A DNA stretch of 64,000 nucleotides from a bacterium. Its GTDB lineage: Bacteria; Bacteroidota; Bacteroidia; Flavobacteriales; Schleiferiaceae. A program made the position numbers and the translations under genes. Positions 27,923 through 30,180 of this stretch are shown in pieces. The stretch's first letter is position 1; each line of letters opens with the position of its first letter. The notes beneath the pieces are model-generated. The model was not told the DNA's origin. It saw nothing but the letters and a program-made list of their open reading frames with translations, and did not search any database. The DNA is taken from positions 1 through 64,000 of the forward strand of contig WGMI01000002.1 of NCBI GenBank assembly GCA_016125155.1, read 5' to 3'.

Positions 27923-27954
27923 TTGAGACTTGCCGCAGGGCTGTTGTATTTTTG
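27923..27954 (+). promoter_or_regulatory. Promoter of the secreted TPR gene
   Basis: A TTG at 27923-27925 is followed after 21 bases by TATTTTTG at 27947-27954, matching both halves of the Bacteroidota -33/-7 promoter. It ends 14 bases before the ATG at 27969. Confidence 0.55.
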
Positions 27955-27968
27955 AAAAAAATCGAGAG

Positions 27969-29285
27969 ATGAAAGTTAAGCTTCTGTTTTTGAGTCTTTT
28001 ATCGGTATTTCTGGGCTGGGCTCAGGAAGGACCTGAGTTGTCCAGCGCCATTCTCGCTTTGGACAAAGGGGATGTGGTGAGTGGCAAGCCCTTTATGGAC
28101 AATGCCAAATCCATCATTGAAAGCAAGGCCCCGGGCGAGGTAAAGCCCAAGAACATGCAGAAGTATCTGTACTATATGGGCTTTATGAATTTGTTGATCG
28201 CCACCAGCCAGGAAGCGGCCATTCTGGAGCTCAATGCCAACGCCTGTGAGGATGCCGAGCGCTACTATGGCGAATTGTTGGCCCATGAAAAATCATTGGG
28301 CAAGGAGAAATTCACGCCCAATGTTCGGAACGATTATGGGAATTTGGCGGTGGGCTACGCCAATCGGGGATTTGCCCGCAACGAAAAAGGCGATGATGCC
28401 GGAGCCAGCCAAGATTTCCGCAAGGTGTACGAATTGCGCAAAAGCGGCGAGCCCAGTCAGGTGGATTCGACTTCGCTCTTCAATGCGGCACTGTTGGCGG
28501 AAAAAGCGGGCGATCCTGCTTCGATCGATCGGGCCATCGTCTGGAACCAGGAGTTGATCGATATGGGTTTTGATGGGATTACCTACACCGTAACTGATCC
28601 GAAGGGGGGCAAATTCCAAATGGCTTCTCGCGCATTGGCCGAAGAAGGGATTAAACAAGGGCTGTATACCCAATTGGAAGTCGGCGAATCGATCCGGGAC
28701 GAGGTGTACAAAGCCCAAGTGCGTTTGTACAAGGCAAAAAAGGACGATGCCAACTACAAAAAGGCCCTCGCTGAGGCGCGCGCGGCTTATCCCAACGACG
28801 AAACCTTGTTGCGCGTTGAGCTTCAGGATTTCCTCGATTCAGGCAACTACACGGCAGCCATGGCCAATCTCGATCAGGCGATTGCCCAAGACCCGACCAA
28901 CCCGCTGTTTTACTATGTGAAGGGCTACATTTTTCAGACCAATATGAAAAAAGAACCCGAGGCATTGGCAGCGTATGACAAGGCCATCGAGTTGAAACCG
29001 GATTATGTAGAGGCGCTGTACATGAAGGGTTCACTCTACGTAAACCGAGCGAACGAAATGACCGAGGTCATGAACAAATTGCCCTTGAACGCCACCAAGC
29101 AGTACAACAAGCTCAAGGCCGATCAGACCAAGGAATTCGAAATGGCGCTGCCGTTGTTTGAACAAGCGCACAAGGCCGAACCCAAGGATGTAGACACCAT
29201 CAAAGCCCTCAAAGAAGTGTATTACAAACTGGGCAAGCTGGACAAGAGCAAAGAAATGGACGCGCTGTTGCTCGGCGCGCAATAA
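27969..29285 (+). CDS. Exported tetratricopeptide-repeat protein
   Basis: This 438-residue protein starts at ATG 27969 with a signal peptide (MKVKLLFLSLLSVFLGWAQ). Several TPR-like helical pairs follow; the clearest are YTAAMANLDQAIAQDPTNPL and EALAAYDKAIELKPDYVEALY in the C-terminal half. It should act as a periplasmic scaffold. Large TPR proteins of this kind follow gyrA in many Bacteroidota. A strong terminator lies 23 bases after the stop. Confidence 0.85.
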   Translation: MKVKLLFLSLLSVFLGWAQEGPELSSAILALDKGDVVSGKPFMDNAKSIIESKAPGEVKPKNMQKYLYYMGFMNLLIATSQEAAILELNANACEDAERYYGELLAHEKSLGKEKFTPNVRNDYGNLAVGYANRGFARNEKGDDAGASQDFRKVYELRKSGEPSQVDSTSLFNAALLAEKAGDPASIDRAIVWNQELIDMGFDGITYTVTDPKGGKFQMASRALAEEGIKQGLYTQLEVGESIRDEVYKAQVRLYKAKKDDANYKKALAEARAAYPNDETLLRVELQDFLDSGNYTAAMANLDQAIAQDPTNPLFYYVKGYIFQTNMKKEPEALAAYDKAIELKPDYVEALYMKGSLYVNRANEMTEVMNKLPLNATKQYNKLKADQTKEFEMALPLFEQAHKAEPKDVDTIKALKEVYYKLGKLDKSKEMDALLLGAQ

Positions 29286-29308
29286 GTGTAGTGTGGTGTG
29301 TTACAAGG

Positions 29309-29341
29309 GGCTGTCCAAGATCGGACAGCCTCTTTTTTTTT
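29309..29341 (+). terminator. Rho-independent terminator after the TPR gene
   Basis: GGCTGTCC (29309-29316) pairs with GGACAGCC (29323-29330) around a 6-base loop, and a T-rich run follows at 29331-29341. The stem can extend outward by several A-T and G-T pairs. Confidence 0.9.
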
Positions 29342-29358: not shown

Positions 29359-29490
29359 GTACACCGATCAGGATAAGAGTGAGAACCTCAAAGGGTTTTA
29401 GGAAAAAAGAGAATGGGTTAAAGCATTAGGAAAAAAGAGAATAGGTTAAAGCATCGTGATTCGGTATTCTGAAATTCATCAGTTAACATA
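29359..29490. repeat. Long direct repeat, copy 1 (132 bp, with internal tandem duplication)
   Basis: It begins GTACACCGATCAGGATAAGA and ends AGTTAACATA. It matches copy 2 (29497-29600) almost base for base, but carries an extra 28-bp unit: unit 29399-29426 is repeated at 29427-29454 with one G-to-A change. No reading frame covers it. The purine-rich AT-leaning sequence differs from neighbouring genes. Confidence 0.9.
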
Positions 29491-29496
29491 TGGGGT

Positions 29497-29600
29497 GTAC
29501 ACCGATCAGGATAAGAGTGAGAACCTCAAAGGGTTTTAGGAAAAAAGAGAATGGGTTAAAGCATCGTGATTCGGTATTCTGAAATTCATAAGTTAACATA
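29497..29600. repeat. Long direct repeat, copy 2 (104 bp)
   Basis: This is the second copy of the repeat at 29359-29490, 6 bases after the first, lacking the 28-bp internal duplication. The only other difference I see is one base near the 3' end (CATCAG against CATAAG). An AT-rich stretch follows at 29601-29640, and no gene is seen between 29601 and 29739. Confidence 0.9.
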
Positions 29601-29739
29601 ATATTAATTATGATATTATCGATTTAGTCGAAAATAAATCACTCACGGACCAAACAGCTGAATGGTATTCCTGAAGGTATCGCTGAACGCAAAAACCCTC
29701 CCCGAACCAAGCCCAGTAGGATCAAAAAAAGACGAAAGA

Positions 29740-30180
29740 TCAATCCAAAACGCGCAGCTCCACGTTTGGCGTCGATCCCGTTGGTCCGGGAGCCGCTTTG
29801 CGCACTTGCTCCACTTGATTGGCCAAGGCGGAGCGCATCATCAAATAATGCCGAATCAAACCCATTCTCAAGGCTTTGCTCAAATCCGTCTCGACCAGCC
29901 CGATCATCATCAACACGCCTTCTGGTTCCAGCCAAGCATGCGTCTGGCCCGATTCGTCGGTTTCTATCCAACCCCGTTCGATCTGGTTTTCGTTCTGAAC
30001 AATAAGATTCAACAAAGCGTCCGCTTCAATCCCCAACCAAGAACACAAATCCGCGTGGTGAATTAAGCTCCGATCGCCGTCAATCCTCAAGCGCTCTATA
30101 TTGAATTTCTCGGGCAACAACTGCATCCAGAAATCGATGCCCGGAATGGTGGAAGAGACCGCTTTGGAAGAAATGTTCAT
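29740..30180 (-). CDS. Hypothetical protein, possibly Bro/KilA-like (phage-type regulator)
   Basis: This protein has 146 residues. The middle part (HHADLCSWLGIEADALLNLIVQNENQIERGW) followed by HAWLEPEGVLMMIGLVETDLSKALRMGLIRHYLMM recalls Bro-N or phage antirepressor domains, in which a winged-helix-like segment precedes a G-V-x-x-L/M-x-x-x-x-x-x-A/S pattern. This is a weak pattern match made by eye. It stands alone between the direct repeats and the radical SAM gene. It could equally be an unrelated small regulator. Confidence 0.5.
   Translation of the reverse strand: MNISSKAVSSTIPGIDFWMQLLPEKFNIERLRIDGDRSLIHHADLCSWLGIEADALLNLIVQNENQIERGWIETDESGQTHAWLEPEGVLMMIGLVETDLSKALRMGLIRHYLMMRSALANQVEQVRKAAPGPTGSTPNVELRVLD

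Follow-up and report, generated by a model that had tools for sequence, protein, structure and literature searches.

Near-identical noncoding direct repeats ending on the XerD arm of a predicted dif site in a Schleiferiaceae genome

XerC and XerD act at dif to resolve chromosome dimers into monomers, and XerD cleaves at the border between the XerD arm and the centre of the site. In work attributed to Karaboja in 2021, XerD-only sites are reportedly used in the unloading of SMC in Bacillus. Several elements integrate at dif, including CTXphi, VGJphi, TLCphi, GGI, and the microvirus proviruses of Bacteroidetes. In the available part of PMC5357621, dif has an 11-6-11 layout and FtsK-activated XerD is the first cutter in dimer resolution, and the accessible text of PMC5638614 connects disturbed dimer resolution with instability of the terminus. 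Terminus breaks have been proposed as the source of large inverted repeats including dif in Lactobacillus delbrueckii ssp. bulgaricus (PMC5345009, in the portion available). These repeats resemble the locus described here in that terminus DNA has been duplicated, by a process thought to derive from a break near dif. According to the same portion of that paper, they span 38-76 kb, are inverted, and carry a whole second dif, whereas the repeats described here span about 0.1 kb, are direct, and carry half an arm. As a type of site dif is well known, and the duplication of its flank represents a minor variation.

We analysed a 64-kb stretch of DNA, hereafter called the window, from a member of the Schleiferiaceae (assembly GCA_016125155.1, contig WGMI01000002.1, positions 1 to 64,000). 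The initial annotation had described two near-identical noncoding copies of 132 and 104 bp, which lie 6 bp apart downstream of a strong terminator, and a 28-bp unit duplicated in tandem within the first copy with a single G/A change. Sequence comparison confirmed the two copies and the tandem unit, and the terminator is present as well (Table 1). When the extra unit is set aside, the second half of copy 1 differs from copy 2 by two bases, with A instead of G at 29443 and C at 29480 instead of A at 29590. Exact repeats in the window reach a maximum length of 68 bp, in this stretch, compared to 18 bp when the stretch is left out, which places the repeats far beyond chance. The composition also differs from that of the GC-rich neighbours, as had been noticed at the outset (GC of about 0.36 in the repeat region and 0.55 in the window), and the claimed lack of a reading frame held up, in that no long frame crosses the region and the longest mostly internal stop-to-stop stretch is 46 aa. 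No inverted repeats were found at the locus (0 pairs). Copy 1 ends on the same ten XerD-arm bases as copy 2 and is followed by TGGGGT and then by copy 2. Only the last copy continues into the centre and the XerC arm, so that there is a single complete dif and copy 1 is left with a lone XerD half-site.

Table 1. Features of the predicted dif locus, numbered from the first base of the window
Feature	Position	Strand	Remarks
TPR-protein gene, 3' side toward dif	27930..29285	+	Pfam TPR matches; homologue adjoins dif in many relatives
Intrinsic terminator of TPR gene	29305..29334	+	12 pairs, folding z -5.98; T run to about 29341
Repeat copy 1	29359..29490	+	132 bp
28-bp unit in tandem within copy 1	29398-29425 and 29426-29453	+	G/A difference at 29443
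Lone XerD half-arm AGTTAACATA, end of copy 1	29481..29490	+	10 of the 11 bases of the dif arm
6-bp filler TGGGGT separating the copies	29491..29496	+	Unlike the dif centre and unlike the sequence left of copy 1
Repeat copy 2	29497..29600	+	104 bp; final base is the tenth of the 11 in the XerD arm
Predicted dif site	29591..29618	+	XerD arm 29591-29601, centre 29602-29607, XerC arm 29608-29618

The site on which copy 2 ends reads AGTTAACATAA (XerD arm), TATTAA (centre), and TTATGATATTA (XerC arm), with partial dyad symmetry over its 28 bp (11-bp arm, 6-bp centre, 11-bp arm). We take the arm at 29591-29601 to be that of XerD by analogy with E. coli dif. The motif resembles the classical dif given for Sulfurimonas and Sulfurovum in the available part of PMC2731167. 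A search for the dif core with up to two mismatches, with the reversed motif as control, matched 57 of 60 genomes (37 from the family and 23 from outside), including the own genome, which has one match. Within the family, 31 of the 37 genomes have one match, three have none, and three have more, compared to 9/37 genomes matched by the reversed control. Outside the family the reversed control matches 15/23 genomes, so that the core pattern alone is weak evidence there. A variant dif pattern matches 81 of 88 family genomes. Downstream of the TPR homologue of G022 (L012), the sequence AGTTAACATAATATAAATTAT is nearly identical to 29591-29611 of the window. Distances between the TPR gene and dif were examined in 40 genomes, five of which have the two on different contigs (G001, G002, G004, G013, G031); the remaining 20 of the 60 were left out because of no dif match, a weak TPR match, or places clearly apart. 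In the 35 genomes with both on the same contig, the dif motif follows the TPR gene at 65-310 bp, with a median of 88 bp. In three of these 35 (G005, G023, and G032, of one genus), dif is turned round relative to the TPR gene.

GC skew was sampled at 20 places each in two complete genomes of relatives, G003 and G028. Its sign switches at the motif, from +0.039 to -0.041 in G003 and from +0.057 to -0.047 in G028, and changes a second time far from the motif (between 2.4-2.6 Mb and between 1.7-1.9 Mb, respectively). One 20-kb piece just past dif is weakly positive again in each relative (+0.009 and +0.020). The skew of the window itself is +0.012 to the left and +0.003 to the right, with no clear switch. 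The own genome has two full-length matches (310 and 247 bits) and one partial match (88 bits) to the XerD model, all below the cut-off of 329.6. The conservation of the motif, its place behind the TPR gene, the skew switch in relatives, and the 11-6-11 layout together identify 29591-29618, by sequence and position, as the predicted chromosome dimer-resolution site dif, and the repeats stand at the replication terminus. The locus is like described dif/XerCD sites in its 28-bp 11-6-11 layout, conserved core, intergenic place, the skew switch of relatives, and, putatively, the Xer recombinases encoded in the genome. It is unlike them in that the sequence next to dif on the XerD side has been duplicated, the duplicate carrying a second, incomplete XerD arm.

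The intergenic stretch that contains dif is bounded on one side by the TPR gene and on the other by a convergent ORF (29740-30180, minus strand). This ORF is a putative orphan gene of 146 aa without a match in any search made. The proposal that it is a phage-type gene found no support, since searches of Pfam, PHROGs, phage records, and viral contigs yielded no relative; genome contigs gave none either, and among 60 relatives the ORF occurs in the own genome only. A scan of genome contigs with the TPR protein yielded no confirmed relative. In L027, L028, and L031, the repeats adjacent to the TPR gene are tRNA-Glu pairs and were set aside.

Further copies of the repeat sequence were sought in the own genome and in relatives, as the initial annotation had proposed, and none was found beyond this locus in the own genome or in the 88 family genomes, where the repeat is confined to the own genome. 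It occurs at one place in the 2.45-Mb own genome (43 contigs), with the next match at E 1.8. Searches of 60 relatives gave short matches only, the best outside the own genome at E 0.001 and 38 bits. Phage and plasmid records gave two matches each (E 0.07 to 0.9), all on the dif motif and none on the repeat, and a single exact 30-base pattern from the repeat had no match in viral contigs. The four phage and plasmid matches on the dif motif (H1-H4) are perhaps Xer sites of those replicons. A small-RNA locus, one of the readings offered initially, is not supported: folds of the repeat region are no better than those of shuffles (z -0.3 to -1.6), Rfam gives no match at gathering score, and the number of promoter-like sites, 2, is no more than chance predicts (1.8). 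Other repeats of the own genome were seen elsewhere. Three contig ends (L048 end, L051 start, and L054 start, of C6, C9, and C12) carry 17-19 copies of the 7-bp repeat CGAATCC, which varies in phase and strand among the ends and at which the assembly breaks, and contig C11 (L053, 8157-8592) carries a tandem array of period 100 with 4.4 copies.

A second case was found in G002, a member of another genus, in which units of about 113 bp lie behind the TPR gene and extend to the end of the contig, and the contig that carries dif starts inside the same unit. Each unit terminates in (C/T)TACTTAACA(T/A)AA, and the final one continues into TATAAATTATAGG, which completes dif. Here, too, the right breakpoint coincides with the inner end of the XerD arm. 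The first unit consists of the 3' end of the TPR gene itself plus the terminator, and the next unit aligns to it with a score of 92, compared to at most 29 in 500 shuffles, which implies that the unit derives from the host. Of the four half-sites that precede dif in the G002 sequence, three carry TTAACAAAA instead of TTAACATAA; the third and fourth could be one unit if the contigs overlap, though a nearby base differs. Judged by eye, the arrays of G002 and of the window are unrelated in sequence and have the same design. Derivation of the window unit from the end of the TPR gene, as in G002, was rejected (222 of 500 shuffles score as well).

We lean toward the interpretation that the repeats of the window are a recent tandem duplication of about 104 bp flanking dif on the XerD side, with one breakpoint at the XerD cleavage border. 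The suggestion of a recent duplication made at the outset is supported, the copies being local noncoding copies of the dif flank. The chances appear about even that a XerD nick or a break at dif, mended by slippage or end joining, set this breakpoint. The process would start with a nick or break at the border of the XerD arm and the centre, after which the broken end would be joined to a site 110-140 bp upstream on the sister, or the template would slip. The outcome would be a tandem duplicate that stops on the XerD arm, while the last copy would close with an intact dif. The right breakpoint lies at the inner end of that arm and the left one in ordinary sequence, with six filler bases at the join, and a further slip would have produced the 28-bp duplication within copy 1. 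Neither parental sequence accounts for the filler TGGGGT, and there is no XerD arm to the left of copy 1. This filler and the unremarkable left boundary argue for illegitimate joining rather than a regular XerCD crossover. A clean XerCD crossover of dif with a cryptic upstream site was rejected, since it would account for the order of the parts but not for the filler or the left boundary. Among the 35 genomes, the own genome has the greatest distance between the TPR gene and dif (310 bp, compared to the median of 88 bp), consistent with what would be expected of an insertion by duplication. The corresponding gap in G007 is 304 bp and has no repeat. The copies themselves are probably functionless. 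The literature searched, which consisted mostly of papers open without subscription and was available in part, yielded no description of short direct repeats that terminate on an arm of dif.

Ordinary slippage or illegitimate duplication in relaxed intergenic DNA, with no role for Xer and with the end on the XerD arm due to coincidence or to selection sparing dif, is possible but somewhat doubtful. The 6-bp filler at the join and the 28-bp slip duplication in the same stretch favour it, as does the finding that repeats are no more frequent at dif than at control places. We handled 111 genomes, excluded 13 that had no clear dif (G015, G016, G019, G051, G067, G068, G069, G078, G085, G088, G095, G100, G104), and counted direct repeats of at least 30 bp within 400 bp in the remaining 98, including the own genome, in one stretch of at most 1,628 bp at each usable dif. 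Repeats were present in 4/98 of these stretches (G000, G048, G053, G063), compared to 12/161 other intergenic places that served as controls (in 40 stretches, 20 from the own genome and 20 from others). These counts, even with G002 added, reject dif as a general hotspot of repeats; the census missed G002 because its array is split across contigs. Against slippage without Xer, two of five arrays near dif share an end at the XerD arm, for which the rough chance, computed post hoc, is 0.0006 to 0.005.

Sequences near dif in other relatives were also recorded. G059 (L066) has two further XerD-arm sequences, turned against dif, 45-68 bp upstream of it, one of which lies within a second dif-like site, and in G047 (L071) a 40-bp stretch at +210 of dif shares 78% identity with dif plus flanking sequence. 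In G063 (L128), the XerC side carries a stretch that is repeated at intervals of about 210 bp (+33 to +433 of dif) and contains a dif-like core, TTTAGCATAATATCAGATAT, behind which stands a copy in partly inverted form, an arrangement like that of a hairpin attachment site. A similar stretch extends from the right of dif to the contig end in G066 (L174). The stretches of G063 and G066 could be an element that uses Xer.

The initial annotation had also suggested a protein-binding array. This reading is partly right, in that both copies have the dif XerD-arm sequence at their end, whereas use of the extra arm is putative. A role for the extra XerD half-sites, e.g., XerD binding that would aid removal of SMC near the terminus, appears very unlikely. 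The half-sites at the end of copy 1 and of each G002 unit are consistent with such a role, as is the unloading of SMC at the terminus by B. subtilis XerD (PMC12322038, in the part available). The half-site of the window is like the Bacillus XerD-only sites in that it lies near dif and lacks a XerC half; it is unlike them in being a by-product of one duplication, with no enrichment in relatives. Within 700 bp of dif in the 98 genomes, compared to the control, there are 5 versus 0 exact XerD arms, 16 versus 10 with one mismatch, and 119 versus 129 with two, so that XerD arms near dif are not generally enriched. All five exact arms, which belong to four genomes (G036, G040, G048, G059) that do not include that of the window, are turned against dif, and the changed base in three of the four G002 half-sites also speaks against function. 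An exact half-site about 61-122 bp upstream of an exact dif core occurs in 1/395 genomes of the order and 1/395 of the phylum, the own genome each time; the two sets overlap, and the exact pattern misses dif variants and G002.

An assembly artefact is highly improbable. The assembly is fragmented (43 contigs), and contigs of G002, G030, G031, G055, and G066 likewise break off no more than about 240 bp from dif, but two base differences, one 28-bp unit, and a spacer distinguish the copies, and the same design recurs in a second genome (G002). An origin from an element that host XerCD had inserted at dif, such as a filamentous phage or a microvirus-like provirus, of which the repeat would be a remnant, is also highly improbable, because the repeat, although it lies beside dif with partial dif-like arms as in the integrated elements named above and insertion at dif is known, Bacteroidetes included (PMC3091885, in the part available), is only about 100 bp long, has no genes, no dif arm at its left end, and no relative among the searched phages, plasmids, and viral contigs, and because the G002 unit is host DNA. 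Likewise, the element remnant proposed initially is not supported by a sequence that has a single genomic copy, does not occur in any other of the 88 family genomes, and lacks inverted repeats. An IS end or MITE was rejected on 0 terminal inverted pairs and the single copy, and element genes between two dif-like sites were rejected on the lack of a frame and of an arm left of copy 1.

The window and G002 provide two natural cases of a duplication that ends on the XerD arm, and the question of whether processing of dif leaves duplications thereby becomes testable by counting breakpoints in many genomes. It is conceivable, though improbable, that XerD cleavage at dif is mutagenic, such that events that are aborted or wrongly repaired would duplicate the flank as far as the XerD arm and build, next to dif, arrays of half-sites (window, G002) able to bind XerD and to influence processing of the terminus. 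The identification of the predicted dif site, and hence of the replication terminus, now places both in a poorly known lineage, in which dif holds its position behind a TPR gene across many relatives.
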